Source of the DNA: Hylemonella gracilis
GTDB taxonomy: Bacteria; Pseudomonadota; Gammaproteobacteria; Burkholderiales; Burkholderiaceae_C
Assembly: GCA_945862005.1 (NCBI GenBank)
Contig: CAMAWQ010000002.1
Span: 1-50,292 of the forward strand
Length of the DNA stretch: 50,292 nucleotides
Reading direction: 5' to 3'
Shown in pieces: positions 3-43,157 of the stretch. A program made the translations under genes and the position numbers. Numbering within the stretch: the first letter of the stretch is position 1; the number at the start of each line of letters is the position of its first letter. The notes below the pieces were generated by a model. It saw nothing but the letters and a program-made list of their open reading frames with translations, was not told the origin of the DNA and did no database searches.

Positions 3-980
3 GTTACCCGTCACGCCTTTAGGGTGGCCAGCGGGCTGGATTCTATGGTGCTGGGCGAGCCCCAAATTTTGGGCCAGATGAAAGATGCCGTGCGCGTGGC
101 CTCAGATGCGGGCGCACTGGGCACCACGCTCAATCAGTTGTTTCAGCGCTCATTTTCAGTGGCCAAAGAGGTGCGCTCCACCACCGAAATTGGCTCGCAC
201 TCCATCAGCATGGCCGCAGCAGCCGTGCGCTTAGCGGGTCAAATCTTTGACGACCTGAGCCAAACCAAAGTGCTGTTTGTGGGCGCTGGGGAAATGATTG
301 AACTCTGCGTCAACCACTTCAATGCTAAAAAACCAAGTTCCATCACGATTGCCAACCGTACCGTAGAAAAAGGCAGCAAACTGGCGCAAGCCTTAGGCGG
401 CAGCGTGATGCAGCTGTCTGAATTGCCTTTGCGGCTTCATGAGTTTGACATTGTGGTCAGCTGCACCGCCAGCACTTTACCGCTGATTGGTTTGGGCGCT
501 GTAGAGCGCGCCGTGAAGCTGCGCAAGAAAAAACCCATGTTCATGCTGGACTTGGCGGTTCCGCGAGACATAGAGCCCGAAGTCAAGTCTTTGCGTGATG
601 TGTTCCTCTACAGCGTGGATGACCTATCCAGCGTGGTTCAAGTGGGGCAAGCGCATAGGCAAGCCGCCGTGAGCCAAGCCGAGAGCATTATTGATGTGGG
701 GGTTAAAAACTTTCACCATTGGATGGAGCAGCGTGGCAATGTGCCTCTGATTCAGCAGCTGCACTCCAAGGCCGATGCTTGGCGCGAGGCTGAGCTGACC
801 AAAGCCAAAAAGCTCTTGGCCAAAGGCGAAGATTTAGAACAAGTGCTGGAAACCTTGTCCCGTGGCCTGGTTAAAAAAATGATGCACGGCACCATGAGCG
901 AGCTGCACGCCGCCACCTCACATGACTTGCAGCACATGCAAGCCACTATTGAAAAGCTGTTTTTACGCTCTCGCCACTGA
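3..980 (+). CDS. hemA: Glutamyl-tRNA reductase, 5'-truncated by window edge
   Basis: Frame continues upstream of the listed ORF ([29 protein letters not shown]), characteristic GluTR motif; C-terminal GluTR dimerisation-like region. Confidence 0.95.
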
Positions 981-1040
981 GTACTTGGCCACGCAAGCAG
1001 CAGGCCACATAGCGTGAAATGTACAAATTGAAAGTCTTGA

Positions 1041-1069
1041 TTGACAACCTTACATTTTGAATGTTAACT
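1041..1069 (+). promoter_or_regulatory. Candidate sigma70 promoter of pucBAC (TTGACA-N17-TTAACT)
   Basis: TTGACA at 1041-1046, 17-nt spacer, TTAACT at 1064-1069, upstream of pucB; overlaps first PpsR-type site. Confidence 0.45.
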
Positions 1070-1079
1070 TAGGTTTACA
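1062..1079. promoter_or_regulatory. PpsR/CrtJ-type operator TGT-N12-ACA (site 1)
   Basis: TGT TAACTTAGGTTT ACA read directly. Confidence 0.7.
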
Positions 1080-1087
1080 TACAGATG

Positions 1088-1105
1088 TGTACATCCAAAT
1101 TAACA
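1088..1105. promoter_or_regulatory. PpsR/CrtJ-type operator TGT-N12-ACA (site 2, tandem)
   Basis: TGT ACATCCAAATTA ACA; 8 bp after site 1. Confidence 0.7.
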
Positions 1106-1200
1106 CTTAGATTCACAGCTGGGCAGAATTTGTGTCCATGGGGGACACGAATACCTCGTGCGGTTTGAGCACGTTTTGGAGTACTACAAGGAGAAATCCA

Positions 1201-1353
1201 ATGTCTGATTCCCAGAAGGTATGGCCTACAGGGTTAACCGAGGCCGAATCCGAGGAAATACATAGAAACCTCATTCAGGGCACGCAAATTTTCGGCATGA
1301 TCGCCGCGTTTGCCCACCTGTTGGCGTATATCTATTCCCCTTGGTTGAAGTAA
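1201..1353 (+). CDS. pucB: LH2-type light-harvesting protein beta chain
   Basis: MSDSQKVWPTGLTEAESEEIHRNLIQGTQIFGMIAAFAHLLAYIYSPWLK; antenna beta motif with AFAHLLA His; AAGGAG-like RBS upstream of ATG 1201 (listed ORF start 1132 is too far upstream). Confidence 0.93.
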   Translation: MSDSQKVWPTGLTEAESEEIHRNLIQGTQIFGMIAAFAHLLAYIYSPWLK

Positions 1354-1369
1354 CAGAAGGAGCTACATC

Positions 1370-1558
1370 ATGATTTACGGAAAAATGTGGTGTGTGGTCA
1401 AACCCTCGGTGGGCATACCATTGTTCATCGCTGCCGTAGCAGTTGCATCGTTCAGCGTGCACCTCGCGATCGTGTCCAACACGACGTGGGTCAAAGCATT
1501 CTTGAACGGCAAAGCACCTGCTCCCGCAGTGACTGCAACGGCCCCGACGGGAAAATAA
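1370..1558 (+). CDS. pucA: LH2-type light-harvesting protein alpha chain
   Basis: MIYGKMWCVVKPSVGIPLFIAAVAVASFSVHLAIVSNTTWVKAFLNGK...; LH2 alpha pattern, His31; AAGGAG RBS. Confidence 0.93.
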   Translation: MIYGKMWCVVKPSVGIPLFIAAVAVASFSVHLAIVSNTTWVKAFLNGKAPAPAVTATAPTGK

Positions 1559-1573
1559 CCAACCTTCCCTCAA

Positions 1574-1604
1574 GCAGGCCGGGTCATTTTTTGACCTGGC
1601 CTGC
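1574..1604 (+). terminator. Strong intercistronic hairpin between pucA and pucC
   Basis: GCAGGCCGGGTCA-TTTTT-TGACCTGGCCTGC: 13-bp stem with one G.T wobble, 5-nt loop, 15 nt after pucA stop. Confidence 0.8.
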
Positions 1605-1628
1605 ATTTAATTTGTCTGCTTGCGCTAC

Positions 1629-3020
1629 ATGACCACCAAATACCCCAAACTCGTTCATGTGTGGAGTGGTATCGCCCCCAAGTTTTTACCTTTTGCAGAC
1701 GCCGCCTCAGAAGATCTCCCGCTATCGCGCCTGTTGCGTTTGTCGCTGTTTCAAGTCAGCGTGGGTATGGCTTTAGTACTGTTGGTAGGCACCCTCAATC
1801 GAGTGATGATTGTGGAATTGCATGTGCCTGCTTCAGTTGTGTCGATCATGGTTGCCATACCCTTGCTGTTTGCGCCTTTTCGCGCCCTGATTGGTTTTAA
1901 ATCTGACAACTACCGATCTGAATTGGGTTGGAGGCGAGTACCCTACATGTGGAAGGGCTCTATGGTTCAGTTTGGCGGCTTAGCCATCATGCCGTTTGCC
2001 TTGCTGGTGCTGGCGGGCGCCGGTCAATCGGCCTCAGTACCCGTCTGGGTGGGCCTGATAGGCGCTGCCGTAGCATTTTTGATGGTAGGCGCGGGTTTGC
2101 ACACCATTCAAACCGCTGGTTTGGCCTTGGCCAACGACTTGGCGGCTGAAGAATCCAGACCCAAAGTCGTGGGCCTGATGTACGTCATGCTCCTGATAGG
2201 CATGATCGTGAGCTCCCTGGCCTTTGGCGCGTATTTATCTGATTTTTCACCCGGCGCGCTCATTCAAGTCATCCAGGCCAGTGCAGTGATCACACTGGTG
2301 CTCAACGTTATTGCGTTTTGGAAGCAAGAGCCCCGCAGCCGCATGCGCCGCGGTAAACCAGCGATAGAACCCTCTTTTGCCGAAGCTTGGCGCACCCTCA
2401 CGGTCGACTCCAGAACCTCCAGAACCTTGGTGGCCATTGGCATGGGCACGTTTGCGTTCAATATGGAAGACATTTTGTTAGAGCCTTATGGGGGTGAAGT
2501 GCTGAATATGAGCGTCAGCGAAACCACCTGGCTCACAGCCACCCTGTGTGTGGGAGGACTGTTGGGCTTTGCGTGGGCGTCTAGGGTGTTGGGCCGCGGC
2601 GCAGACCCTTACCGCATGTCTTGGGCGGGCGTGTTGTTGGGTATTCCGGCTTTTATGGCCGTGATTGCATCCGGTTACCTCCACATGCCATGGTTGTTTT
2701 CTTTAGGGGTACTGCTCATTGGCTTGGGCGGCGGCCTGTTCGGCCACGGCACGCTCACGTCTTGCATGAACCTGGCCCCCAAAGAGCAAAGTGGTTTGGC
2801 GCTGGGCGCATGGGGAGCGGTGCAAGCCACTGCGGCCGGGCTGGCCATGGCCTTAGGGGGCGTGGCCCGAGATGTGGTCAACCTCATGACGGACGGGGAC
2901 ATGGGCTATGTGAGTGTGTACGGGTTTGAAATCCTCATGCTAATTTTGACGGCCTACGTGCTGTATCCCTTAGTTGGGCAGTCCAAAATGGGCCTGCCAG
3001 CAGCCCAAAATGTCAACTGA
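1629..3020 (+). CDS. pucC: PucC / BCD-family MFS light-harvesting assembly transporter
   Basis: ORF 1620-3020, likely ATG start at 1629; PucC-like MFS sequence (LRLSLFQVSVGMALVLLVGTLNRVMIVEL). Confidence 0.9.
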   Translation: MTTKYPKLVHVWSGIAPKFLPFADAASEDLPLSRLLRLSLFQVSVGMALVLLVGTLNRVMIVELHVPASVVSIMVAIPLLFAPFRALIGFKSDNYRSELGWRRVPYMWKGSMVQFGGLAIMPFALLVLAGAGQSASVPVWVGLIGAAVAFLMVGAGLHTIQTAGLALANDLAAEESRPKVVGLMYVMLLIGMIVSSLAFGAYLSDFSPGALIQVIQASAVITLVLNVIAFWKQEPRSRMRRGKPAIEPSFAEAWRTLTVDSRTSRTLVAIGMGTFAFNMEDILLEPYGGEVLNMSVSETTWLTATLCVGGLLGFAWASRVLGRGADPYRMSWAGVLLGIPAFMAVIASGYLHMPWLFSLGVLLIGLGGGLFGHGTLTSCMNLAPKEQSGLALGAWGAVQATAAGLAMALGGVARDVVNLMTDGDMGYVSVYGFEILMLILTAYVLYPLVGQSKMGLPAAQNVN

Positions 3021-3043
3021 ACGAATTTTTATAGGAGATAGGT

Positions 3044-3136
3044 ATGCAAATTCACCATATTCTGCTGGCCCTATGGTTGCTGGTCGTCGTGTTGTTCTTG
3101 ATGAACTTTTTCAAAATCAAGAAGCCCAAGCGCTGA
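3044..3136 (+). CDS. Predicted 30-aa single-pass membrane peptide downstream of pucC
   Basis: ATG 3044 to TGA 3136: MQIHHILLALWLLVVVLFLMNFFKIKKPKR; AGGAG at 3033-3037 with 6-nt spacing. Below the ORF-track length cutoff. Confidence 0.65.
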   Translation: MQIHHILLALWLLVVVLFLMNFFKIKKPKR

Positions 3137-3194
3137 CAGTTAGGTCCTTTCTGGGGCTGTTGCTGGCCTGATCACCAAAACCCTAGTCGGGCAT

Positions 3195-3220
3195 ACCCTG
3201 ATGGCGTGAGGGTTATTTTT
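3195..3220 (+). terminator. Possible weak rho-independent terminator after the pucBAC unit
   Basis: ACCCT-GATGGCGTG-AGGGT followed by TATTTTT. Confidence 0.35.
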
Positions 3221-3307
3221 GTTTAAGCTCGCATCCTAACCAACTCAAGGCGGATCGAGAATACTGGTGCTTAGTCTCAAGCGTCAGGCATGTCACCGTA
3301 ACGGACC

Positions 3308-4159
3308 ATGGATCAGCGCCCCGCTCACAGAAGCTCAGCCTCTTCACCCGCACCTGCCTCACAGGACAGTTGTAAGGATTCGCTTCGACACGTGATTGAG
3401 TCGCAAATCATCCCGCGCCTTTTAGAAGCCACTGCCTTGGTGCAAGCTTCTAACGATGCTCAAACGTTTTTCGCCTGTTATGAGGGCGCACCCCAAGATG
3501 TTGAGGCGTTTGCCCACAGCTGCATGGCCAATGACGCAGCAACTTCCAGCCAGTTTATGGACGATTTGGTGGGGCAAGAATTCAGCATTGAAAGCCTGTT
3601 TTTAAACCTCATTACCCCCGCCGCACGCTGGTTAGGCGAGCAGTGGGAGGCAGACAAGATCGATTTCACGCAGGTGACCTTGGCGTTGCAGCGCATGCAC
3701 CACATCACTCACCGCTTGGGCTATGAGTTTCAAGCCCAGACCCATCAAGCCGACGACCCCAAAAGCATCATGCTGGCATCGGCTCCGGGCTCACAGCATT
3801 TGCTGGGCTTGGTGATGGTGAGCGAGTTTTTTCGCAAAGGCGATTGGCAAGTCACACTTGAAATCACCAACACCGAGCGCGAACTCCTGCACGCCGTCGC
3901 CAATGAGTGGTTTGACCTGATTGGTTTATCTTCAGGTCTTCAAGAGCAAGTCCATGGCTTACCGAGCCTGATTGCGCGCCTGAAAAAATTGTCTCGTAAC
4001 CCCAATATTGGAGTACTTTTAGGTGGGCCTGCTTTTATTGGACACACCCATCAGGCACACGATTTAGGGGCAGACGGCATTGCTACCGATGCCTCGCAAG
4101 CACTAGACATTGCGGCGAATGTCTTGCAATTAAAAAAACTGGCTAAGCATCCGGACTAA
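3308..4159 (+). CDS. ppaA: Cobalamin-binding (B12-binding domain) regulator, AerR/PpaA-like
   Basis: B12-binding-type C-terminal half (ASAPGSQHLLGLVMVSEFFRKGDWQV...GVLLGGPAF); PGC context; paralogous to 13558-14400. Confidence 0.75.
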   Translation: MDQRPAHRSSASSPAPASQDSCKDSLRHVIESQIIPRLLEATALVQASNDAQTFFACYEGAPQDVEAFAHSCMANDAATSSQFMDDLVGQEFSIESLFLNLITPAARWLGEQWEADKIDFTQVTLALQRMHHITHRLGYEFQAQTHQADDPKSIMLASAPGSQHLLGLVMVSEFFRKGDWQVTLEITNTERELLHAVANEWFDLIGLSSGLQEQVHGLPSLIARLKKLSRNPNIGVLLGGPAFIGHTHQAHDLGADGIATDASQALDIAANVLQLKKLAKHPD

Positions 4160-4180
4160 CCCTTGCGGATCAGTCAAAAG

Positions 4181-4198
4181 TGTCAATTTAGCTTGACA
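4181..4198. promoter_or_regulatory. PpsR/CrtJ-type operator upstream of bchI
   Basis: TGT CAATTTAGCTTG ACA, TGTCAA/TTGACA arms; 58 bp before bchI. Confidence 0.75.
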
Positions 4199-4256
4199 TA
4201 AGTCCTCGGTTTGCCGAACATCTGCCGGGTACAAAACCCCAGATGCGAAGATTTTT

Positions 4257-5288
4257 ATGGCTAAGACATTTCCCTTTTCCGCCATTGTGGGTCAAGAAGA
4301 CATGATCTTGGCCATCCAAATGGTCGCCGTTGACCCCAGCATTGGCGGCGTCTTGGTGTTGGGCGATCGCGGCACTGGCAAATCCACAGCAGTTCGCGCC
4401 CTGGCAGATTTGCTGCCCCCTATTAAGGTGGTTGAGGGTTGCCCCTATGGGTGCGACCCAGAAGCCGCTAACCCCTGCCCAAGTTGCCAGCAACGCTTGG
4501 AGGGTAAAAGCGCCACCAAACTGAAATCTGTTAGCCGCGCTGTGCCCGTGGTGGACCTGCCCCTAGGCGCCACCGAAGACCGCGTCGTGGGCGCCTTGGA
4601 CCTGGAACAAGCGCTGAGCCGCGGCGTTAAAGAATTTGCACCGGGCCTATTGGCCAAAGCACACCGTGGCTTTTTGTACATCGACGAAGTGAACCTGCTG
4701 GAGGACCACATTGTGGATTTGCTGATCGACGTGGCCGCCTCCGGAGAAAATCTGGTTGAGCGCGAGGGCCTGAGCGTGCGCCACCCCGCCAAATTTGTGC
4801 TGGTGGGCAGCGGTAACCCCGAAGAAGGCGAGCTGCGCCCTCAGCTCTTGGATCGGTTTGGCTTGTCGGTAGAAGTGCGCACACCTAAAGACCTGGATTT
4901 GCGCATGCAGGTGGTGCGCCGCCGCGACGCGTTTGAGCGCGACCCCGAAGGCTTTAGATCGCAGTGGGAGGAAGCCAACGTCCAATTGCGCCAGCGCATG
5001 CTCAAAGCCCGCAAAGCTGCAGGTCAGCTGCAAGTGTCTGACGATTTGTTGCGAACCACCGCCCAACTCTGCAGCCAACTGGGCACCGATGGCCTCAGGG
5101 CCGAACTGACCTTGCTGCGGGCTATGCGCGCCTTTGCCGCGCTAAAAGGCCACAAACAAGTCGGCACCAGCCATTTGCGCAGCGTGGCGCCTTTGGTACT
5201 GCGCCACCGTTTGCGACGCGACCCCCTTGACGACACCGATTCCGGCGAGCGCGTACAAAGGTGCCTAGACGAGGTGGTACCCGCTTGA
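4257..5288 (+). CDS. bchI: Magnesium chelatase ATPase subunit I
   Basis: AAA+ Walker A GDRGTGKS; LFIDEV-like LYIDEVNLLEDH; Mg-chelatase I family sequence. Confidence 0.97.
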   Translation: MAKTFPFSAIVGQEDMILAIQMVAVDPSIGGVLVLGDRGTGKSTAVRALADLLPPIKVVEGCPYGCDPEAANPCPSCQQRLEGKSATKLKSVSRAVPVVDLPLGATEDRVVGALDLEQALSRGVKEFAPGLLAKAHRGFLYIDEVNLLEDHIVDLLIDVAASGENLVEREGLSVRHPAKFVLVGSGNPEEGELRPQLLDRFGLSVEVRTPKDLDLRMQVVRRRDAFERDPEGFRSQWEEANVQLRQRMLKARKAAGQLQVSDDLLRTTAQLCSQLGTDGLRAELTLLRAMRAFAALKGHKQVGTSHLRSVAPLVLRHRLRRDPLDDTDSGERVQRCLDEVVPA

Positions 5289-8505: not shown

Positions 8506-9692
8506 GTACGTACAAGGCCAAACAAATGGGCCAAATCTTTGAAGAAAATGCGCACATGCCGCATGGGGTCAGAACGAACCAACTCTTTGTTCATGTACGA
8601 GTCAAACGTTAATTTTTGCACGTCTTTGTCTTCACAGATTTTCACAAACCGCTCACGTCTTTGATCGTTTTGGTACCAGAAGTACTGCATGATGGCCAGT
8701 ACCCAAAACACCTTGCCGTGTAATTTTAAAAACCGCTTGCGCGCCTGCTTCAAGCAGGCGGCGTTTCCAGTGGCCAAGGCTTCTTGCACTGCCTCTGCGG
8801 CCATGCGTCCGCAGGCCATGGCGTAGTAAATGCCTTCGCCGGATGCTGGGGCCACCACACCCGCAGCGTCACCGGCCACCACCACATCTCGGCCGTTGTC
8901 CCATTTGGGCAGTGGCTTAAGCGGAATAGGCGCACCCTCGCGGCGCAAGGTTTTGACTTGGTCTAAGCCGGTTTGAGAACGCAAGGCCCCCACGGCTGAG
9001 CGCAATGAAAACCCTTTGTCGGCACTGCCAGTACCCACGCTCATGGTGCGCCCGTGGGGAAACACCCAACCGTAAAAGTCAGGCGACAAATGCCCTTGGT
9101 AAAACACGTCGCAACGTTCGGGGTCGTGGCCGGCGTGGGTGGGCGCCTCAATGATTTCGTGGTAAGCAAACACATACTTGGTTTTTTCAGCGCCCTCAAT
9201 CATTTGCCGCGCCACGCTGGAGCGGGCTCCATCTGCACCAATGATCATGCGGGCACGCGCCCTGCGCAGGACGCCCAAACCATGTTTGTTGACTTCATTG
9301 AAGTGCACCACGGCCATGCCATCTTCATCCCTGGTGATTTTTTGAAAGTCGGCACGGCAACGGTGGGCACCATGAGAGCTGGCACGTTCTCTGAGCCATT
9401 CATCAAATTCGTCGCGATCCACCATACCCACAAATCCATTTTCGATAGGAATGTCCACGCGGTTGTCTTTGGGGGACACCATGCGTGCGCAACGGGCTTT
9501 GGCTACCAGCAAATGGTCGGGGATTTCAAAGTCTTTGATGAGCCTTGGGGGTATGGCGCCACCACAGGGTTTGGTGCGACCTTGACGGTCTAAGAGCAAC
9601 ACTGATCGGCCCTGTAAAGCCAGATCATCTGCAGCAGTGGCGCCGCAGGGACCGCCACCCACCACGATCACGTCGTATTCTTCTGACATCAT
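8502..9692 (-). CDS. bchP: Geranylgeranyl reductase
   Basis: FAD-binding VVGGGPCGATAADDLA; DRQGRTKPCGGAIPPRL typical of BchP. Confidence 0.95.
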   Translation of the reverse strand: MMSEEYDVIVVGGGPCGATAADDLALQGRSVLLLDRQGRTKPCGGAIPPRLIKDFEIPDHLLVAKARCARMVSPKDNRVDIPIENGFVGMVDRDEFDEWLRERASSHGAHRCRADFQKITRDEDGMAVVHFNEVNKHGLGVLRRARARMIIGADGARSSVARQMIEGAEKTKYVFAYHEIIEAPTHAGHDPERCDVFYQGHLSPDFYGWVFPHGRTMSVGTGSADKGFSLRSAVGALRSQTGLDQVKTLRREGAPIPLKPLPKWDNGRDVVVAGDAAGVVAPASGEGIYYAMACGRMAAEAVQEALATGNAACLKQARKRFLKLHGKVFWVLAIMQYFWYQNDQRRERFVKICEDKDVQKLTFDSYMNKELVRSDPMRHVRIFFKDLAHLFGLVRT

Positions 9693-11056
9693 TGCTGAGC
9701 TCCTTGGTAGGTGTTAAATACAGAATCTGGGGATGCGGACGGCCCGTCCAGCCGAAACACATGCACGGCCACTGCGGCCGATAAGGCAAACATGAGGGCC
9801 TCCAGGCCAAACACAGTGGCATAGGCCAAACTTGGAGATGTAATGAGCCAGCGCGCCAAGTCGCTAGCCGCTGTGCCCAACACCCCGCCCAAGCCAAAGG
9901 CAATCGCTTGTGAAGCGCCCCACAGCCCCATGCGGGTGCCCTCGCGACCGCCCTGGCCTTTGCCGGCAAGCCTCATCATGGTGGCAATGGCGGCAATAGA
10001 AAACGCACCATTGGCCACGCCCAACACAAACACGTTAGCCCGTAGGGGCCAGCTCTGGCCTTGTATACCGGCAAGGCACAAACCGGACATGGCCACGGCC
10101 GAAATCAAACAGCCCCACACCATCCAGCTGGGTACAGACCCCAAACGGCCTTTGGCCCAGCTGCTTCCTGCCACCGCAACCAAAATCATGCCGGCCAACA
10201 CGCCGCTGTGGTGTAGTCCGGAGAGCTGCGTAGTGGCCCCTGGAGACATGCCAAACACCGACCCGGCAAAGGGCTCCAATATCAAGTCTTGCGAGCTGTA
10301 GGCCAACATAGACAAAAACACAAAAATGGTGAAGGTGCGGGCTTGCGGCTCGGCCCACACCTCTTGAAGCACTTGTTTAAAGCGCTGGCCGGAAGTTTGC
10401 TCTTGAGCCGCACTGGGCGAATTGAGCGAACTGGCTGAAGCGAGCAAGGCCACTGGCCCTTCAAGCCCCCAAAGGCTTAATGCCGCCACCAACACCACCG
10501 TGCAGGCCAAGCCTGTAGTGACCTGAATCAACACCGACGGGCTGTAAGGGTCTATGAGTTTGCCCACCGTGACCGCAGTAACCGCAAACCCCACAATCAT
10601 CATCATCCACACCAAGGTGGCGGCGGGCGCCCGTCTGTGGTCAGGAACCCGCTTGGCCATCAGGGCCAAGAGCGAGGTACCGCAGGCGCTCACTCCCAAG
10701 CCAATCAGGCAGAAGGCCAAGAAGGCCAGGACCATGCCAGCCCAAAGCTCAGAAGCCATCCAGACCGTAGCCACAGAGGCCAAGATGCCGCCCAATGCCA
10801 ACACCACCACGCCACCCAACATCCAAGGGGTTGAGCGGCGCCCTTCATCTGCCCCAAAACCTAAGCGTGGACGAACCATTTGCACACCGTAGTGCCAACC
10901 TACCAAAAGGCCCGGAAGCAGCGCGGGCAGTGCCAATTCGACCACCATGATGCGGTTTAAGGTGGAGGTGGTCACCACCACCACAGAGCCCAAGCAGGCT
11001 TGCACCAAGCCCAATCGCACAATGTGGAGCCAGCCAAACGGGGACATGGTGTGCAT
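9689..11056 (-). CDS. PucC/BCD-family MFS transporter between bchG and bchP
   Basis: PucC-like LGLVQACLGSVVVVTTSTLNRIMVVEL; located as in other PGCs between bchG and bchP. Confidence 0.88.
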   Translation of the reverse strand: MHTMSPFGWLHIVRLGLVQACLGSVVVVTTSTLNRIMVVELALPALLPGLLVGWHYGVQMVRPRLGFGADEGRRSTPWMLGGVVVLALGGILASVATVWMASELWAGMVLAFLAFCLIGLGVSACGTSLLALMAKRVPDHRRAPAATLVWMMMIVGFAVTAVTVGKLIDPYSPSVLIQVTTGLACTVVLVAALSLWGLEGPVALLASASSLNSPSAAQEQTSGQRFKQVLQEVWAEPQARTFTIFVFLSMLAYSSQDLILEPFAGSVFGMSPGATTQLSGLHHSGVLAGMILVAVAGSSWAKGRLGSVPSWMVWGCLISAVAMSGLCLAGIQGQSWPLRANVFVLGVANGAFSIAAIATMMRLAGKGQGGREGTRMGLWGASQAIAFGLGGVLGTAASDLARWLITSPSLAYATVFGLEALMFALSAAVAVHVFRLDGPSASPDSVFNTYQGAQQ

Positions 11057-22667: not shown

Positions 22668-23375
22668 ATGAACAGCACCACCTACGAAGCGCGCCGCAAC
22701 CAGATTGAGCACTATTTTGACCGCACGGCGGCCAATGCTTGGGCTCTATTGACCTCTAATGAACCGGTGGGTCGCATTCGCACCACGGTGCGAGAAGGCC
22801 GCGACCAAATGCGCACCACGCTCATGAGCTGGTTGCCGCAAGACATGCATGGCATGCGTCTGTTGGATGCAGGCTGCGGCACAGGTGCTTTGGCTGTTCT
22901 GGCAGCGTCACGAGGCGCTGAGGTGGTGGCCATTGACCTGTCACCCACCTTGGTCAATCTGGCACGTGAACGGATTGTTCAAGGCCTTTCCCACATGCCC
23001 GGGTCCATTGAGTTTTTGTCGGGTGACATGCTGGACCCCAATTTGGGCAGCTTTGACTATGTGGTAGCGATGGACTCGCTGATCCACTATGGTGCTGAAG
23101 ACATTTTGCGAGCTTTGACGGTGTTGTCACAGCGCACTCGCCATGGCATGTTGTTCACGTTTGCACCGCGCACGCCACTCCTCGCGCTCATGCACAGCAT
23201 GGGCCAATGGTTTCCTAAAAGCGACCGGTCACCCTCTTTGGTGCCGGTGGCTTACCAACACCTTTTAAAACTCATGAAGCAAACGCCTGAGTTACAAAGT
23301 TGGCACACCGCGCGCAACCTGCGCGTGTCCAGTGGCTTCTACACTTCTCAAGCTTGGGAATGGCGCCACGCATGA
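22668..23375 (+). CDS. bchM: Mg-protoporphyrin IX O-methyltransferase
   Basis: SAM motif LLDAGCGTGALAVLAASRGAEVVAIDLS; downstream of bchL. Confidence 0.95.
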   Translation: MNSTTYEARRNQIEHYFDRTAANAWALLTSNEPVGRIRTTVREGRDQMRTTLMSWLPQDMHGMRLLDAGCGTGALAVLAASRGAEVVAIDLSPTLVNLARERIVQGLSHMPGSIEFLSGDMLDPNLGSFDYVVAMDSLIHYGAEDILRALTVLSQRTRHGMLFTFAPRTPLLALMHSMGQWFPKSDRSPSLVPVAYQHLLKLMKQTPELQSWHTARNLRVSSGFYTSQAWEWRHA

Positions 23376-24829
23376 AGCTTGCGGCCAAGCTCATGAACAC
23401 ACCCTTGCTGCGTCCACCAGGGTGGGTGATGGCATTGGGCAGCCGCATCATGCCGTTTGCAGATGCCGCCTCTCCTGAGCTGCCCATGAGCCGTTTGCTG
23501 CGTTTGTCTTTGTTTCAATTGGTCATTGGCATCAACATGGCACTGTTGGTGGGCACCCTCAACCGCGTCATGATTGTGGAGTTGGGCATGCCCGCTTGGA
23601 TCGTGGCTTGCTCGGTGGCCATACCTTTGTTGTTTGCACCTTTGCGCGCATTCATCGGGTACCGCAGTGACACCCACCCCTCGCCCTTAGGTTTGCGCCG
23701 TCTGCCTTATTTGTGGATGGGCAGCTTGATGCTGTTCGGGGGTTTGGCCATCATGCCCTTTGCCTTATTGTTGTTGTCCGAGTCCATAGACCAAACTCTT
23801 TCACTGGGTCACGTGGGCGCCTGCTTGGCCTTTGTGTTGGTAGGTGCGGGTATGCAAGTCACTCAAACGGCAGGTATGGCTTTGGCCAATGACCTTGCCC
23901 CTGCAGAAAAGCGTCCTCGCGTGGTGGCCTTGCTCTACACCATGCTGTTGGTGGGCATGATTGGCAGCAGCGCGGTGTTGGGTTGGCTCCTGGAAGACTT
24001 TTCCCCCAAACTGCTGATTCAGGTCATTCAGGGCTCCGCTGTCTTGGTGTTGGTGCTCAACTTGATGGCGCTTTGGAAACAAGAGGCGCGTCAACCACGC
24101 CGTGGCGCACGCCAAGTAGATGGCTTTAAGCAGAGCTGGACCCAGCTGATGCAACTGCCCCACATGAAACGCTTTTTGTGGACGGTGGGCTTGGGCACCA
24201 GCGCCTTCAGTATGCAAGACATTATTTTGGAGCCCTATGGCGCTGAGGTGTTGGGCCTGAGCGTGGGCATGACCAGCAGCCTCACAGCCATCAGCATGGC
24301 CGGGGCTCTGCTGGCGTTTATAGGTTCAGCGAGATGGCTGAGCCAAGGCATTCATGCCTGCCGCTTGGCCAGTTTGGGCGTGTTGACTGGTCTGCCCGCA
24401 TTTGCCTTAGTCATTTTTTCTGCCCCCATGGAGTCGATTTGGATGTTTCGCATCGGCGTGCTCTTGATTGGGTTTGGGGGCGGTTTGTTTTCGGTGGGCA
24501 TGTTGGTCACGGCCATGTCACTTCCGAACAAAGAACACAGCGGTTTGGTCTTAGGGGCTTGGGGCGCTGTGCAAGCCACAGCGGCTGGCGCCTCTATGGC
24601 GCTGGGCGGTGTGATTCGAGATGTGGTGGCGCAATGTGTGCAGTGGGGCTGGCTTGGAGAACCCTTGATGGGTCCGGCAACTGCTTACAGCTTTGTTTAC
24701 CACATTGAAATTTATTTGTTGTTTGTGGTGTTGGTGGCCTTGGGTCCGCTGGTTCGACGCTCTCGCAGGGAATCAACTGGCGCAAACCTTAGGTATTCCA
24801 AATTGGGGCTGGCTGAATTGCCGGGTTAA
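23372..24829 (+). CDS. lhaA: PucC-family LH1 assembly protein
   Basis: PucC-like MFS, bchM-lhaA-puhA order; ATGA overlap gives start 23372 rather than 23300. Confidence 0.9.
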   Translation: MKLAAKLMNTPLLRPPGWVMALGSRIMPFADAASPELPMSRLLRLSLFQLVIGINMALLVGTLNRVMIVELGMPAWIVACSVAIPLLFAPLRAFIGYRSDTHPSPLGLRRLPYLWMGSLMLFGGLAIMPFALLLLSESIDQTLSLGHVGACLAFVLVGAGMQVTQTAGMALANDLAPAEKRPRVVALLYTMLLVGMIGSSAVLGWLLEDFSPKLLIQVIQGSAVLVLVLNLMALWKQEARQPRRGARQVDGFKQSWTQLMQLPHMKRFLWTVGLGTSAFSMQDIILEPYGAEVLGLSVGMTSSLTAISMAGALLAFIGSARWLSQGIHACRLASLGVLTGLPAFALVIFSAPMESIWMFRIGVLLIGFGGGLFSVGMLVTAMSLPNKEHSGLVLGAWGAVQATAAGASMALGGVIRDVVAQCVQWGWLGEPLMGPATAYSFVYHIEIYLLFVVLVALGPLVRRSRRESTGANLRYSKLGLAELPG

Positions 24830-30200: not shown

Positions 30201-31275
30201 TACCTTGAGTACCTCTGCTACCGAATTGGATTTAGAGTCGTGCGTCGGCATGATGCGCGCAGGCTCGAAAACATTTTTTGCAGCCAGCCGCCTGCTCCCC
30301 CAACGCATGAGGGCAGCGTCTGTGGCCTTGTATGCGTTTTGTAGGGTTGCCGACGATTTGGTAGACGGCGCTGAATATTCTCCGACGCAAAGTCTCAAAC
30401 TGTTGCACCATCGGCTTGACCGGGTGTACCAAGGTCAACCCACCGAAGCCATTGAAGACCAAGCTTTGGCTTTGGTGGTGCAGCAGTACCAGCTGCCCCG
30501 TTTGTTACTAGACGGTTTGCTTGAGGGTTTTGCATGGGATGCCGAGGGTCGCCGTTACGACACCCTAGAGCAACTCCACAGCTACGCCGCACGTGTGGCC
30601 GGAACAGTGGGCGGCATGATGTGTTGGATCATGGGCATTCGCCACCCCGTGGCCTTGGCCCGGGCTTGCGAATTGGGTGTGGCCATGCAACTGACCAACA
30701 TTGCCCGCGATGTGGGCGATGACGCCCGCATGGGACGCATCTATCTGCCCTACGCTTGGTTGCAGGAAGCAGGCATTACGCCCCAGGAGTGGCTGCAACA
30801 ACCTGAGTGCACCCCTGCCCTGCAGTCGGTGGTGAGCCGCTTACTTGACGAAGCTGACCGCTTGTACGAGCAGGCCAGCGCAGGCATTGCCAATTTGCCT
30901 AAAGACTGTCGCCCTGCGATTTTGGCGGCACGTTTGATCTATGCCGAAATTGGCCATCAGCTTCGCCGCAATGGGCTGAACTCTGTGGACCACAGGGCCG
31001 TGGTGGGCACGCCCACCAAGCTTATGCTGCTCGGCCAATCTCATTTATCTGCCGCTTGGATCAAGCCAGCCGAACACCCTCCCAAGCCCCTAGATGCCAT
31101 TGCCTATTTAGTAGATGGGTGTGTGGCTCAAGTGGCTTGTGAAACCGCACATGCACCAAGCACTGCGACCAGCTCTAGGTCTGCAGTGGACAAAATTGAA
31201 TGGATGCTGGTGCTGTTTGAGCGCCTAGCTCACGAACGCCGCGACGCTATGGAAGCGCCTCGGGTTTTGCACTAA
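30181..31275 (+). CDS. crtB: Phytoene synthase
   Basis: YAFCRVADDLVDG and LTNIARDVGDDARMGRIYLP motifs; start 30181 likely. Confidence 0.96.
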   Translation: MSTPSSSTLSTSATELDLESCVGMMRAGSKTFFAASRLLPQRMRAASVALYAFCRVADDLVDGAEYSPTQSLKLLHHRLDRVYQGQPTEAIEDQALALVVQQYQLPRLLLDGLLEGFAWDAEGRRYDTLEQLHSYAARVAGTVGGMMCWIMGIRHPVALARACELGVAMQLTNIARDVGDDARMGRIYLPYAWLQEAGITPQEWLQQPECTPALQSVVSRLLDEADRLYEQASAGIANLPKDCRPAILAARLIYAEIGHQLRRNGLNSVDHRAVVGTPTKLMLLGQSHLSAAWIKPAEHPPKPLDAIAYLVDGCVAQVACETAHAPSTATSSRSAVDKIEWMLVLFERLAHERRDAMEAPRVLH

Positions 31276-32132
31276 AAAGGCTTTTCACCCAAGACAGTGA
31301 TACGTCTGAGCTTTCTTCTTTCGCTCGAATCAAAGTCGCTTCGAGCATGGAGAGTGCATCTGTTGTCCCAAATAATGATGTCTCCAACAGTCCACTTGTG
31401 GGCATAGGTAAATTCAGCCTGCTCGGCATGGTCGAACAAGAAATTTAATATGTCGTTGCTCTCATTTATGGGTAAGCCAATGATGTGATCGGTCATTAAG
31501 CGGTTCACGTACAAAGCTTTACGCTTCGTTACCGGATGGGTACGAAATACCGGGTGGGCAAAGTGTTTAACACCTTCCGCAATTTTAGATCCTCGCTTGG
31601 TACCGCTTGCTTCGTAGTCGTATACATTGACTGCCATTAACCCCTCAAGTTTGATTTTCAGCTCAGAGGGTAGCGTTTCGTAAGCTTTGTACATATTCGA
31701 AAAAATGGTGTCGCCACCCTTTTTAGGAATCTCCATGGCATAAAGCATTGTGGCCATGGCGGGTTTTTCTACATAACATTGGTCTGAGTGAAAATACATC
31801 TCACCATCGGGCAAGGCGCCAATTAGTGCTCCATTTTCCTTGATGTTAGATATATACATAACGGAGGGGTGTCTGCCTCCCCCGGTATGTTTATTCAGAA
31901 CACTGCCAAGCACACCAAACTGCTCACAAAACCTGACTTGATCGTCTTCTTCCAAACGTTGCCCGCGAATTAAAAGGATCAGACCGTCATGCCAGGCCTG
32001 TTGAATACGATTGAATTTTTCATGATCCAGTGGCTCTGATAAGTCAACGCCACAAATTTCCATACCCAGCGCAGCGGAAACAGGCCTAATTTGAATATCG
32101 GCAACATTTGTATGTTCCATATGTACATCCAA
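31272..32132 (-). CDS. TauD/TfdA-family Fe(II)/2-oxoglutarate dioxygenase
   Basis: FHSDQCY (HxD), WDNRCTLHAR distal His; TauD fold sequence. Start may be 32120. Confidence 0.9.
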   Translation of the reverse strand: MDVHMEHTNVADIQIRPVSAALGMEICGVDLSEPLDHEKFNRIQQAWHDGLILLIRGQRLEEDDQVRFCEQFGVLGSVLNKHTGGGRHPSVMYISNIKENGALIGALPDGEMYFHSDQCYVEKPAMATMLYAMEIPKKGGDTIFSNMYKAYETLPSELKIKLEGLMAVNVYDYEASGTKRGSKIAEGVKHFAHPVFRTHPVTKRKALYVNRLMTDHIIGLPINESNDILNFLFDHAEQAEFTYAHKWTVGDIIIWDNRCTLHARSDFDSSERRKLRRITVLGEKPF

Positions 32133-32213
32133 GGCTTTAGTTAAGGAAAAAGAGATGGGTTAGGGTTGAGTTAAAAACCTTTGAGCCCGTCAGTAAGATG
32201 GGGGTTACGTGTT

Positions 32214-33104
32214 TTAGCATTCGTAGCGCTTGGCAGCTTCCATCAAAACGGGAGTACCAATCATTTCATTTAGGCCATCAAAGTCAAGCATCTTTTGTTG
32301 CCATGGGGCTGTGCTTTGATGTTTGCGTAAGCTGGCGTAGTAACCTTGAAGTGTGTGAGCGACTGCACGCGCAGTTCCACCAGGAAAGATCACAATACTA
32401 AAACCACGCTGCCCCAGTTCATCCACTGTCTGGAGGGGGGACTTACCACCTTCAACCATATTGGCAAGCAGCGGCACCCTATTGGCAAAGCGGGAGCAGG
32501 CATCATCCATTTGCTGTGGTGTGCGAAGCGCTTCGATAAATAGAGCATCTACGCCACAGTTCAGGTACTCCTCGGCCCGATCCATAGCTGCGTCCATACC
32601 CTCGACGGCAACAGCATCCGTGCGAGCAAGAATTAAAGTGTCAGCGCTATGTCTGGCGTCAAGCGCAGCGCGCAGTTTGCCGCACATCTCACTGGTTGCA
32701 ACTACAGTTTTACCGTCTAAGTGACCACAGCGTTTAGGGAAAGTCTGATCTTCAATTTGAATCATGGCAGCGCCTAAACGCTCAAATCCACGAACTGTGC
32801 GTTGAACGTTAACAACATTACCAAAACCTGTATCAGCATCCACAATCACTGGAATGGCAACTCTATCTGTTATGCGAGCTAGTGTGTCTTCGACCTCAGT
32901 AAATGTGGTGAGTCCAACGTCTGAGCGACCAAGACGGGTGTATGCAATTGAAGCTCCCGAAAGATAAATTGCTTCAAAACCCTCCTGCTCAGCAACTAAG
33001 GCTGTCATCGCATCGTAAACGCCTGGAGCCAATACAGCGGACTGCTCAGTGAGCCGAGTTTTAAAAGAAGGCATGAGTATTGGCTTTAAGTTGTAAAACA
33101 ACAA
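32214..33104 (-). CDS. Isocitrate lyase/PEP mutase-superfamily C-C lyase
   Basis: PGVYDAMTALVAEQEGFEAIYLSG, DADTGFGN, FPKRCGH lyase signature (methylisocitrate/dimethylmalate lyase-like). Confidence 0.9.
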   Translation of the reverse strand: MLFYNLKPILMPSFKTRLTEQSAVLAPGVYDAMTALVAEQEGFEAIYLSGASIAYTRLGRSDVGLTTFTEVEDTLARITDRVAIPVIVDADTGFGNVVNVQRTVRGFERLGAAMIQIEDQTFPKRCGHLDGKTVVATSEMCGKLRAALDARHSADTLILARTDAVAVEGMDAAMDRAEEYLNCGVDALFIEALRTPQQMDDACSRFANRVPLLANMVEGGKSPLQTVDELGQRGFSIVIFPGGTARAVAHTLQGYYASLRKHQSTAPWQQKMLDFDGLNEMIGTPVLMEAAKRYEC

Positions 33105-33114
33105 TAATCATCAC

Positions 33115-34587
33115 TCAAGTTGTGGGCCGGAACAAATACTTGCCTTTAGGCTTGCCAATAACTTGACCGTTCTCATAGATTTTTTCACCCCTAAGATAGG
33201 TGGCTTCAACGCTCGCAGAAAGCTCTAGACCTTCAAAGGGGGTGTAACCCTGAGTGGACGCCGAATCCTTGGCATGTATGGTCCAGGTTTTGGCTGGATT
33301 AACTAGAGCAATATCAGCGTCAAAGCCATGAGCAATATCACCCTTGCTATTGAGCCCATAGCGCTGGGCAGGATTCCAACTTAGCACACGAGCCATATGG
33401 TTGTAACCCATTCCGCGTTTTGTGCCTTCGCTCACAAGAGAAGGCAGTAGGTATTCGGTGCCACCAAATCCACTCTTGGTCATCCATATATTTCCAAAGT
33501 AACGTTTGGCAGATTTCATTTCGTGACGGCAGCATGCGTGGTCACTGACAACCCAGTCCAACTCACCAGCCAGGAGCGCCTCCCATAGAAACTCCACATC
33601 CTCGCGCGGGCGAATGGGCGGATTGACCTTAGCCAAAACTGCTGCTTTACTATGAATATCAAGCATCAGGTGACCAATAGTGACTTCGCGCTTGAAATCA
33701 ATATGTGGAAAGGTTTGAGCCATCATCATCGCGGCCTGAACCGCTTTTCGGGACGACAGGTGAAGAAGATTGATGTTGGGCAAAGCTGTCTCATGAGCTA
33801 GGTAGCTAGCGATAAAAACAGCAAGGCCTTCTGAGTGCTGCGGCCTAGAAGCACTATAGGCTGCCAAACCGCTTAACGATTTATCTTTTTGAACTAGCTC
33901 CGTGTATGCCGTCATGACTTCAGCAGTCTCGCAGTGCAAGGACAGTGAAATTTGCTTAGCACGATCTGGAAACCTCTCTCTCGCTGCCTGAATGCCACGC
34001 ATGATGAACTCGAAGTGAGCGAAATCGTACCGCTCGTCCTCACCGATCATCAAGAAGTCTTTTTGCGAGTTTGAGGCTCCATGCAGGCCGTGCGAGCCAT
34101 AGAACATGAAGATCTTAAAACTGGATACACCGTGCTTTTCAATGAGTTCAGGAATTTCCCGAATGTGCTCACGGTCCATTGGCGCCAGATGAAAACCATA
34201 GTCAACGTGAAATCTACCGCGAGCGATTTTGAGTACTTCAGGATAAAACTTTTTGTAAGGTCCGCCCTTATTCAGGTAGTACTGCCCCGTTCGGAAATAA
34301 TTAAGACTCGAAGTGACACCCCCCATAGCCGCGGCTTTACTTTCGGAGATTGCATCTTCATACAGAGGAGAGTAGATACCACTGTGCATATGCGCATCCA
34401 CTACTCCCGGAAAGGCTAAGGCTCCTTTAGCGTCATCCACTCGCTTAGCTCTACTCACATCAATACCCGGTGCTATCAACGCAAACTTGCCCTCATTGAT
34501 AGCGATATCGCTATCGTGAACGACATTGCCATGAGGACGAACTAGGCGAACATTCTTAATAAGCAAGTCAAATTCGGGTTGATTCAT
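33115..34587 (-). CDS. Dihydropyrimidinase/hydantoinase/dihydroorotase-like amidohydrolase
   Basis: Metal ligands DAHMHSG, SSFKIFM (carboxylysine), LHCET, LLHLSS, VSDHAC. Confidence 0.88.
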   Translation of the reverse strand: MNQPEFDLLIKNVRLVRPHGNVVHDSDIAINEGKFALIAPGIDVSRAKRVDDAKGALAFPGVVDAHMHSGIYSPLYEDAISESKAAAMGGVTSSLNYFRTGQYYLNKGGPYKKFYPEVLKIARGRFHVDYGFHLAPMDREHIREIPELIEKHGVSSFKIFMFYGSHGLHGASNSQKDFLMIGEDERYDFAHFEFIMRGIQAARERFPDRAKQISLSLHCETAEVMTAYTELVQKDKSLSGLAAYSASRPQHSEGLAVFIASYLAHETALPNINLLHLSSRKAVQAAMMMAQTFPHIDFKREVTIGHLMLDIHSKAAVLAKVNPPIRPREDVEFLWEALLAGELDWVVSDHACCRHEMKSAKRYFGNIWMTKSGFGGTEYLLPSLVSEGTKRGMGYNHMARVLSWNPAQRYGLNSKGDIAHGFDADIALVNPAKTWTIHAKDSASTQGYTPFEGLELSASVEATYLRGEKIYENGQVIGKPKGKYLFRPTT

Positions 34588-34604
34588 AAAAGTGCCAGCT
34601 TTAT

Positions 34605-35597
34605 TCAGTCAATGTTGATGCGATTAGCCTTGATAACAGGGGCCCACTTTCGATTTTCAGCTTGAATAAAGCCCACGTAGTCTGCACCAACCAAAGGTAG
34701 AGGAGTCATCCCCAACTCGATAAGTCGAGATTGAATCTCGGGAATATTGACAATGGCTTGTACTTCCCGTTGGAGCCGCAGTGTGATATCAATCGGCAAA
34801 CGCGCCGGTGCCGAAATACCGAACCACGCCCCACCCGTGACACCAGGCAAGATTTCATTAAGTGTTGGAACATCTGGAAAGGAGGTACTTCGTTTTTCGC
34901 CGCTGACCGACAACAGTCGCATCTTGCCCCCCCTTACGTAACCTGTGGCAGTAACTAAGCTTTCAAACATGCCATCCAATTGACCACCAAGCAAATCGTT
35001 AATAGCTGGGGCTGAACCCTTGTAGGGCACATGGACCATGTCAATACCTGCCGCCAACTTGAGCAACTCCCCCGTAAGAAAACCTGAACTACCTACCCCG
35101 GCCGAGGCGTAGTTGAAAGCCCCCGGCTTTGAGCGCGCTATAGCTATGAAATCAAGCATTGTTTTGGCGGGGTGATCGCTACGCACAACAAATCCATTAG
35201 CGAAGGTTCCCAGCAAGGAGATATGGGTAAAGTCCTTGACGGGTTCATAAGGCATTGTGCTTCGCATCAATGGGCCAGGAGCAATAGCTGGATTGGCAGC
35301 GACAACCAAGGTATAGCCATCTGGGGCCGCTTTTGCAACGCTATCTGTACCCAAAAGCGAACCTACGCCGGGCCGGTTTTCGACCACTACGGCAACATTA
35401 AGAGCCTCCGCAAGGCGCTGACTGAACATGCGGGCAATGACATCTGTAGAGCCGCCAGCTGGAAATGGCACTACAAGCCTAATTGGACGAACTGGATAAG
35501 CCTGAGCAAGAGCGAGCTTGGAATATGTAAACACATTACCAACTAGCGCAAACGACAAGCCATTTAGTACTTTACGACGTGTAAACTTGTTCAACAT
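34605..35597 (-). CDS. Tripartite tricarboxylate transporter (Bug) substrate-binding protein with Tat-like signal
   Basis: YPVRPIRLVVPFPAGGSTDVIARMF; TRRKVLNGL leader. Confidence 0.92.
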   Translation of the reverse strand: MLNKFTRRKVLNGLSFALVGNVFTYSKLALAQAYPVRPIRLVVPFPAGGSTDVIARMFSQRLAEALNVAVVVENRPGVGSLLGTDSVAKAAPDGYTLVVAANPAIAPGPLMRSTMPYEPVKDFTHISLLGTFANGFVVRSDHPAKTMLDFIAIARSKPGAFNYASAGVGSSGFLTGELLKLAAGIDMVHVPYKGSAPAINDLLGGQLDGMFESLVTATGYVRGGKMRLLSVSGEKRSTSFPDVPTLNEILPGVTGGAWFGISAPARLPIDITLRLQREVQAIVNIPEIQSRLIELGMTPLPLVGADYVGFIQAENRKWAPVIKANRINID

Positions 35598-36795
35598 GAA
35601 AGCCCTCCCTCAAGTTTTAATTGTAGGTGCCGGTCCAGTGGGCCTTACTGCCGCTCTGGTTTTGGCGGATTCTGGTGTCAAGGTTCAAGTGCTTGAGGCA
35701 TCCAGCGGCATAGAAGAAGACCTTCGCGCCTCTACATTCCACCCGCCGACCTTGGATATGCTCGATGCTTGGGGCATTACCAGTACCTTGCTGGCACAAG
35801 GTTTGTTGTGTCCACATTGGCAGGTCCGCCTTCACCCTGCTGGAGAGTTTGCACGTTTCGACCTGTCTGTACTGGCTGACATCACCGCACACCCCTACAG
35901 ACTCCAATGCGAGCAGTTCAAGCTTTCTCGTGCATTGTTGGCTCGACTGAAAGACTTTCCTCATGCGCATGTGCGCTTTGGCACATCTGTGGAAAAAGTC
36001 TCTCAGAACGATAGCAGTGTTCAATTGCATGTGACCCATGAAGACGGCTCTGAAAACTTGCGCGGTGGGTGGTTGATCGGAGCAGACGGTGCACACAGCA
36101 TTGTGCGCAAAGCGCTCGGAGTTGGCTTTGAAGGTCAGACTTACCCCGAAACTACGATTTTGGCTACTACCAACTTTGCTTTTGAAGAGCACTTGCCAGG
36201 GTTGTCTAATGTGTCTTATTGCTGGCATATGGATGGAGGTAACTTCAGTCTGCTTAAGGTTCCTGAACGTTGGAGGGTCTCTATCTACCCTGATGCGAAC
36301 AAGCCCATTGAAGAATCTTTGACCCCTGAAGCCATTGAAGAGTCTCTCCAAGCTATCGTTCCGCATGAGAAACCATACCAGGTGATGGAAGTAAGACCCT
36401 ACCGCGTACATCAGCGTATAGCCTCGTCTTACGGAATTGGTCGAATCTGGTTGGCCGGAGACGCCGCCCATTTGAATAGCCCAGCCGGAGGTATGGGAAT
36501 GAACGGCGGCGTGCATGACGCGCTTAACTTGGCCAAAAAACTGGTGAGAGTTTTGAGGGGCGAGCCCAGCGAGCTGTTGGCTCAATACGAACTTCAGCGC
36601 CGGCCTGTAGCACTTGAACAAATTCTCAAGCAATCCGACGCCAACCGAGCTCGCATGCGTGAGCGTGACCCCACTCTGCGCCGCCAGGCCTTGCAGAAAC
36701 TTCAGGTTATTGCTGATGACCCTGTTGCCCATAGGCAGCACCTGCTTCGCACATCGATGATCGAAGGACTGAGACTCAGCGGCCAGATTCAATAG
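35596..36795 (+). CDS. FAD-dependent monooxygenase (class A flavoprotein hydroxylase)
   Basis: VLIVGAGPVGLTAALVLADSGVKVQVLEAS; LIGADGAHSIVRKALG; IWLAGDAAHLNSPAGGMGMNGGVHDALNLAKKL. Start MKALPQV at 35596 chosen. Confidence 0.9.
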   Translation: MKALPQVLIVGAGPVGLTAALVLADSGVKVQVLEASSGIEEDLRASTFHPPTLDMLDAWGITSTLLAQGLLCPHWQVRLHPAGEFARFDLSVLADITAHPYRLQCEQFKLSRALLARLKDFPHAHVRFGTSVEKVSQNDSSVQLHVTHEDGSENLRGGWLIGADGAHSIVRKALGVGFEGQTYPETTILATTNFAFEEHLPGLSNVSYCWHMDGGNFSLLKVPERWRVSIYPDANKPIEESLTPEAIEESLQAIVPHEKPYQVMEVRPYRVHQRIASSYGIGRIWLAGDAAHLNSPAGGMGMNGGVHDALNLAKKLVRVLRGEPSELLAQYELQRRPVALEQILKQSDANRARMRERDPTLRRQALQKLQVIADDPVAHRQHLLRTSMIEGLRLSGQIQ

Positions 36796-36803
36796 CCCAA
36801 CTA

Positions 36804-37574
36804 TCAACGGCAACTTCCAATCTCGCTTCGCCACTGAGCTTTCGGATCAAGCATAGCTTTTAATATATGGTGGTGACTGGTTTGAACCGCAGTTGCACAG
36901 CGCATAGCCCAGGCTAGACAAAGATTTGACGAAAGAATCGGCACTGAGGAGTAACGCTGGGCAATAACTCGCAACGTTGGCATACCCGTGCCGCTAAGCA
37001 ACACCGCATCGCACAAGCTGGTATCAATCTGGTCAAAAATCTCTAACACGCTCCTAGACCTCAGACCATAAATATTGCGAGTGTCCAGCAGTTCTTGAGG
37101 CAGGGTCAAAATAGGCCCCAGATCAAAACCGCAGGCGCGCCAGTAGGCCTGGCCAGCTGCTGAAAGCCAATCAGGATAGGGCGATAGCAAGGCTATACGT
37201 CGTGCGCCCAGGGTCTGGAGAGCAAGTTTGATGGCTTGAGCAGCCCCAATTACTGGATAGCCACGTGCTGAAGTTAAGTTACCAAGCCGAAGCTGATCCT
37301 CCTCTAGGCCCACGAGATAGCTTGATCCAGTGCAAGCAAAGCCAGCCACCTGAACTGGAGCCACATCAAATTGATCTAAGGTTTGGCTTAGCTTGTCAAA
37401 GTAATCGATCAGCCGAGCCCGAGAGTCCTGAAGCAGACTCGTCATTCGTGCCGTTAACAAGCTGTTGCCTTGAGACAGCAATGCTTGCATTTCTGGCTCG
37501 ACTGTTGGATTGGCTTGGGGCACAGCGACCGCTAAGACTGGACCGTATTCGAGACTGCAGCTGAGATCAGCCAT
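36804..37574 (-). CDS. Asp/Glu racemase / maleate isomerase / arylmalonate decarboxylase-superfamily protein
   Basis: VAVPQANPTVEPE, AGFACTGSSYLVG, VLLSGTGMPTLRVIAQRYSSVPILSSN. Confidence 0.8.
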   Translation of the reverse strand: MADLSCSLEYGPVLAVAVPQANPTVEPEMQALLSQGNSLLTARMTSLLQDSRARLIDYFDKLSQTLDQFDVAPVQVAGFACTGSSYLVGLEEDQLRLGNLTSARGYPVIGAAQAIKLALQTLGARRIALLSPYPDWLSAAGQAYWRACGFDLGPILTLPQELLDTRNIYGLRSRSVLEIFDQIDTSLCDAVLLSGTGMPTLRVIAQRYSSVPILSSNLCLAWAMRCATAVQTSHHHILKAMLDPKAQWRSEIGSCR

Positions 37575-37581
37575 AAGGAAT

Positions 37582-38097
37582 TTATTTCAAGTTTCGCTGT
37601 TTGAGGCTTGCAAGCAAACCTCCCTTGAGCGCCATTTGCAGAAGAAAGTCAGGAACAGGTTCGCAATTAAGGCGCTTTCCAGACAATAAAACAACCGAAG
37701 ATCGATCCACATCTAGCAAAAGGTGCTTCTCATTTTTTAACGAATCGGCACTTGTACAAGTCAGCAAAATCAGACCTAAGTTAAATGCATTACGAAAAAA
37801 AAGACCGCCATAGCTAGGAGCAATGACAGCAGCCACACCTAGATGAACTAGGGCACCTGCTGCCTGCTCCCGGGAAGATCCAATGCCGAAATTACGACCC
37901 GCCACTATCACATCCCCTGGTCTTACAAGTGAGGCGAAGTGAGGAACTAAGCTTTCTAAGCAGTGATTTGCAACCACATCAATTCCATACTGCATCCATG
38001 CTCCGGGAGCTAACGCATCGGTATTCACCTCGTCACCCAAATGCCAGATTTTGTGCGGGGCACCGGCGTAAATACTCTTAGGTTCTACTGCGTTCAA
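37582..38097 (-). CDS. LeuD-like hydro-lyase small subunit
   Basis: IVAGRNFGIGSSREQAAGALVHLGVAAVIAPSYGGLFFRNAFNLGL. Confidence 0.92.
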   Translation of the reverse strand: MNAVEPKSIYAGAPHKIWHLGDEVNTDALAPGAWMQYGIDVVANHCLESLVPHFASLVRPGDVIVAGRNFGIGSSREQAAGALVHLGVAAVIAPSYGGLFFRNAFNLGLILLTCTSADSLKNEKHLLLDVDRSSVVLLSGKRLNCEPVPDFLLQMALKGGLLASLKQRNLK

Positions 38098-40330: not shown

Positions 40331-40378
40331 AACAGAATTTTTTTCACAGCGAAAAAGCGAAACATAATTAAAAGGGAT

Positions 40379-43148: not shown

Positions 43149-43157
43149 GGCAACCCT

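Follow-up and report, generated by a model that had tools for sequence, protein, structure and literature searches.

LH2 is a textbook antenna and is usually described as being composed of alpha and beta polypeptides only. Small single-transmembrane (TM) proteins associated with antennas are familiar from the RC-LH1 complexes of Rhodobacter, namely PufX, PufY/protein-U and protein-Z. In Rhodobacter capsulatus, the genes for PucD and PucE follow pucC in the puc operon and encode larger proteins. CcmD and similar proteins combine a short helix with a charged tail and are encoded beside a larger membrane protein. The subunits of open-ring RC-LH1 complexes are treated elsewhere (PMC10214105).

The closest described analogues in architecture are LH1 gamma of Blastochloris viridis and the gamma-like polypeptide of Rhodopila globiformis (PDB 7XXF). 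Both are very short single helices (22 to about 36 aa for this group) of a kind that often goes unannotated. LH1 gamma sits between the beta helices of the LH1 ring. The gamma-like polypeptide of R. globiformis is reported to have its N-terminus in the periplasm and to run antiparallel to alpha and beta; gamma-like chains are small RC-LH1 helices encoded far from puf (PMC9640540). An extra LH2 polypeptide is known from Rhodopseudomonas palustris, and it also remained unnoticed until cryo-EM. This LH2 gamma is an extended ribbon of ~10 kDa without a helix, has been reported only from Rhodopseudomonas, and binds BChl through six Ser-containing repeats (PMC9618040).

The DNA analysed here, called the window, is a stretch of 50,292 nt from Hylemonella gracilis. 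It lies within a photosynthesis gene cluster (bchD, bchO, bchP, bchL, bchM, puhA, puhB, acsF, pufL and others), with the puc operon at its left end on the forward strand. The operon begins with pucB (LH2 beta, 1201..1353) and pucA (1370..1558), which encodes an LH2 alpha of MIYGK type. A 13-bp hairpin in the pucA-pucC spacer (1574..1604), pucC (an LH2 assembly protein of the MFS type with a weak ribosome-binding site, 1629..3020) and a short ORF (3044..3136 including the stop) follow. Three PucC-family proteins are encoded in the window (1629-3020; 9689-11056 on the minus strand; 23300-24829), with 100, 31 and 56% identity to PucC, and the short ORF is found only after the copy behind pucBA. 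Genes without an obvious photosynthetic role sit within the cluster at 31272-44081. They include a taurine-dioxygenase-like gene, an SDR oxidoreductase, an alpha/beta hydrolase and a match to a queuosine precursor transporter, as well as aconitase/LeuCD-like and racemase-like ORFs recognised by eye.

A preliminary description of the short ORF had listed its start, ribosome-binding site, distance from pucC and stop, and had described one hydrophobic helix with a strongly basic tail. Direct reading of the sequence agrees on all of these. The ATG at 3044 lies 23 nt after the end of pucC at 3020, an AGGAG (3033..3037) is found 6 nt upstream with an anti-SD duplex energy of -7.3 kcal/mol, and TGA at 3134-3136 closes the frame. 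The translation, MQIHHILLALWLLVVVLFLMNFFKIKKPKR, has 30 aa, with the helix at residues 6-23 and KIKKPKR as the C-terminal tail.

The ORF is a genuine conserved gene and is under purifying selection. Two genomes of the window's genus contain the same ORF with 97% identity. Conservation and the synonymous/non-synonymous pattern downstream of pucC had been proposed as a check of the gene, and the outcome bears it out. The frame is kept, and nine synonymous differences stand against one non-synonymous difference between the window and L044/L005 (L044 is identical to G015 in this ORF); PucC of the window and of L044 is 90% identical. A second comparison, of L005 with L006 (G015 with G020), gave eight synonymous and no non-synonymous differences. 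Together with homologues after pucC and a strong Shine-Dalgarno (SD) sequence, this substitution pattern upholds the earlier statement that the ORF has the hallmarks of a real coding gene. It is most improbable that the ORF makes no functional protein and is either a chance frame or a short frame serving an RNA or translational coupling. The ORF is indeed very short and belongs to no database family, but such a reading is contradicted by the nine-to-one ratio, the strong SD sequence and the presence of the family in several Burkholderiales families. As for an RNA element, Rfam gave no match across window positions 900-4400, and no terminator-like pattern was seen between the ORF and 4300. Dinucleotide shuffling of the peptide loci produced an ORF that passed the size, hydrophobicity and SD criteria used for the peptide in 9.9% of shuffles, a rate that sets the background only, because the loci had been picked for having the peptide.

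Peptide ORFs were collected at 70 loci from two collections, with some duplicates, at -4 to +190 nt after pucC. The members have 26-43 aa, a single hydrophobic helix, a mostly basic C-terminal tail and an SD sequence. When the members are compared without gaps, starting at the methionine, conservation in the core is highest at W11 (weighted 73%) and N21 (70%), and N24 and F23 recur often. Identity to the window peptide ranges from 7 to 70% (alignment A2), and this high divergence means that a search with a single sequence misses most members. In the profile search, true members reached E values between ~3e-11 and 5e-18 per genome, always at pucC, with the reservation that the same sequences helped to build the profile. 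The window peptide fits the family by its profile E values (3.3e-11 and 2.8e-9) and by its place directly 3' of pucC, behind pucBA of the MIY type. The Polynucleobacter forms (e.g., MNLTGILLTAWVVVCVITLSKMAARLTSKYK) are very divergent and were included mainly because of where they lie and how they are built. A conserved helix face was not detected (p = 0.27). The helix carries no conserved histidine, so pigment binding is not expected.

Some candidates were set aside. Weak tblastn matches appeared in genomes such as G051 and G042, and in G051 no convincing profile match was found; G048, at first also a weak tblastn match, proved to be a true member. An apparent fusion of PucC and the peptide in L058 was ruled out by a stop codon between the two genes. 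In Polynucleobacter rarus and relatives (L055, L061, L116), a second conserved small ORF follows the peptide ~220 nt past the pucC stop. It codes for 60 aa and contains two hydrophobic stretches (MGSTQITKYVGFAIIAVV...).

The family is apparently undescribed and extends across several families of Burkholderiales. Among the curated Pfam and NCBIfam models, nothing passed the curated cut-off, and the window peptide had no match at E 1. Other members gave only isolated, weak matches of the TM type, the best being to DUF3262 (E 0.00064) and to the PP0621 family (E 0.0052). Up to E 10, phmmer and profile searches of the PDB yielded nothing relevant, with filters that may lose such short chains. No description of the family was found in the open-access literature. 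The earlier suggestion of a possibly undescribed family is thus sustained by the lack of a convincing match in Pfam, NCBIfam and the PDB, though short peptides can hide from such methods.

Of the analogues listed in the preliminary description, LH1 gamma is the closest in architecture, and LH2 gamma of Rps. palustris falls away as a helix-free ribbon, since the peptide is a 30-aa hydrophobic helix without repeats. Like LH1 gamma and the gamma-like polypeptide, the peptide is a very short single helix that escapes annotation; all family members have one hydrophobic stretch. The differences lie in genome context. LH1 gamma and gamma-like chains are LH1 parts encoded away from puf, whereas the peptide gene keeps its place after pucC in LH2 operons, and its distribution over genomes follows the LH2 type, not LH1. 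The solved gamma chains gave no PDB sequence match either, within the limits of those searches. PufX, PufY/protein-U and protein-Z are RC-LH1 components, and the peptide had no PDB match although entries for Rhodobacter RC-LH1 were included. PucD and PucE of R. capsulatus are likewise encoded after pucC but are larger proteins. CcmD shows no match at the family level (best E 0.062, in one of 17 members).

The link to the puc operon was also seen in a blind search. This order-wide search used the peptide profile alone, with no reference to pucC, and matched 17 genomes, of which 15 belong to families other than the window's. Fourteen of these 15, from three other families, were examined with longer flanks. 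In all 14, pucC adjoins the peptide and a pucA of the MIY type precedes pucC, i.e., the peptide belongs to MIY-type pucBAC operons. The fifteenth genome, G992, is the same as L167, and pucC lies upstream there too. The number of fully independent cases is somewhat below 14: the G1161 peptide is identical to the profile member L067, so that both probably come from a single genome, and some of the others (G965, G844-like genomes) may duplicate entries of the named collection.

The peptide is present in 68 of 71 pucA rows whose alpha N-terminus reads MIY[GSAE]K. One of the three exceptions (L069) ends its contig inside the peptide; the other two (L022 and L029) come from one genus, that of G108 and G219, in which a genome-wide search found no copy of the peptide. 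In L022 and L029, genes on the opposite strand begin ~50-100 nt after pucC, and alpha residues 44/45 are Y W. The existence of this lineage implies that the peptide is not strictly required by MIY-type antennas. Among 30 non-MIY rows from alpha-, gamma- and some betaproteobacteria, mostly with MNQ or MNN N-termini, none has the peptide; an ORF in L028 that met the mechanical criteria was rejected as a low-complexity ORF starting with TTG. Fisher's test for 68/70 versus 0/30 gives p ~2e-23, a value that is descriptive only because the loci are related by descent. The co-occurrence is largely a consequence of the common ancestry of a single operon type.

In the family sample, 29 genomes had a strong pucC match. 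They include all 17 genomes with the peptide, which was found in none of the 372 genomes lacking such a match. Across the 369 genomes of the class sample, the sole match at E 1e-4 was the window's own. In the plasmid collection, PucC was found only at <60% identity, mostly of alphaproteobacterial type. Four phototrophic relatives with MNQ-type LH2 (G061, G243, G316 and G436) lack the peptide, which indicates that it is not a general RC-LH1 subunit. These observations support a tie of the peptide to one LH2 gene type rather than to phototrophy in general. They also make it unlikely that the peptide serves another part of the photosynthetic membrane (the RC-LH1 ring, a pigment synthesis complex or membrane curvature) and is merely co-transcribed with puc. 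RC-LH1 complexes do have similarly small helices, such as the gamma-like chains encoded far from puf (PMC9640540), but those four relatives have RC-LH1 with a non-MIY LH2 and manage without the peptide, and in every genome where it was found it is kept with the puc operon.

The translation signals distinguish the peptide from pucC. Mean anti-SD duplex energies over ~70 loci were -8.6 kcal/mol for pucB, -8.4 for pucA, -7.8 for the peptide and -2.9 for pucC, the last with the best candidate start used. The peptide starts had been chosen with a weak SD requirement, so that a small part of this strength is due to selection; the contrast with pucC is large. The peptide thus appears to be translated like a structural gene. 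A strongly folding pucA-pucC spacer is found in most related loci, and the hairpin probably sets the ratio of pucBA to pucC. The SD energies and the folding spacer suggest that peptide synthesis would lie above that of PucC and below that of alpha and beta.

The charge distribution predicts an orientation. Over 65 distinct peptides, the mean net charge is +0.4 in the N-terminal flank and +3.0 in the C-terminal flank, and the C side is higher in 58 of them. By the positive-inside rule, this asymmetry predicts an N-out/C-in helix, antiparallel to LH alpha and beta. The orientation predicted from charge asymmetry would match the one reported for LH1 gamma and gamma-like chains. Translation signal and predicted orientation lean towards a subunit. 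The position behind pucC and after a strong hairpin would suit an assembly factor too.

Such a factor could be a small partner of PucC that binds it in the membrane, helps to deliver bacteriochlorophyll or newly made alpha/beta chains to the site where LH2 is assembled, and stays outside the finished antenna. This is the main alternative to a subunit role and somewhat less likely. The peptide always lies directly behind pucC, even overlapping its stop codon in L023 and L024, and every peptide-positive genome of the family sample has pucC. PucC itself acts in LH2 assembly and forms oligomers (PMC4949548). The distance correlation of the peptide with PucC (0.50) is slightly above those with PucA (0.40) and PucB (0.41); the peptide correlates with all partners, and LH2 and PucC are not separated. 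The ribosome-binding site of the peptide is, however, far stronger than that of pucC, which would be unexpected for a 1:1 partner, and PucC of alpha- and gammaproteobacteria works without the peptide. A betaproteobacterial PucC group with MNQ-type LH2 also lacks it (placement support 82). The PucC tree shows three changes of the peptide label and fits one gain and two losses, one in the Y W genus and one, unsure at this support, in that betaproteobacterial group. An AlphaFold2 model of a PucC-linker-peptide read-through of L060 (pTM 0.81; peptide pLDDT about 64-86, linker mostly <50) does not decide between LH2 and PucC and carries no docking information.

We tentatively favour a gamma-like role for the peptide, as a putative accessory subunit of the MIY-type LH2, which is often blue-shifted, with a likelihood just short of even. 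The preliminary description had proposed an antenna subunit or assembly peptide. What stands of this is a real, previously unlisted gene that closes the puc operon and is tied to one LH2 type; the physical role stays putative. As a gamma-like subunit, the peptide would be the product of the fourth gene of a pucB-pucA-pucC-peptide operon. The transcript may pass the pucA-pucC hairpin at a level below pucBA, and the strong ribosome-binding site would then yield more peptide than PucC. The peptide would insert as a single helix with a periplasmic N-terminus and a cytoplasmic basic tail, antiparallel to alpha and beta. It might pack outside the LH2 ring near the beta helices, as LH1 gamma does, and one or a few copies per ring could stabilise the often blue-shifted LH2. 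Extended to the whole class of MIY-type LH2 in Burkholderiales, mostly predicted or known to be blue-shifted, an antiparallel single-helix gamma-like subunit encoded behind pucC is slightly less likely still.

New here is a small membrane protein of MIY-type puc operons that is real, conserved and apparently undescribed; in this antenna it probably acts as a helper or subunit that has so far been missed. If it is a gamma-like subunit, MIY-type LH2 rings would not be plain alpha-beta rings. A conserved third small puc gene with a strong translation signal would mean an overlooked subunit or assembly factor in a major environmental group, comprising Limnohabitans, Rhodoferax, Polynucleobacter and relatives.

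In the window, alpha residues 44/45 (counted from Met1, with H31 and W40 in register) are F L, replacing Y W of the B850 type. Without the hydrogen-bonding residues at these positions, the band moves from 850 to about 820 nm (PMC5374385), and a blue-shifted antenna (B800-820 or LH3-like) is therefore predicted for the window. Most peptide-bearing operons have the pair F L (50/68), and the peptide-free MIY lineage has the B850-type pair Y44 W45. F44 L45 occurs also in peptide-free, non-MIY antennas. A link of the peptide to alpha chains without W45 is suggestive only, as it is based on one independent loss. The antenna of Limnohabitans planktonicus is atypical (799/813 nm), and its architecture has been named an open question (PMC12654162). 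The peptide gene offers a deletable target for that question. In our collection, this species (L085) has the peptide, and its alpha 44/45 pair is F L.
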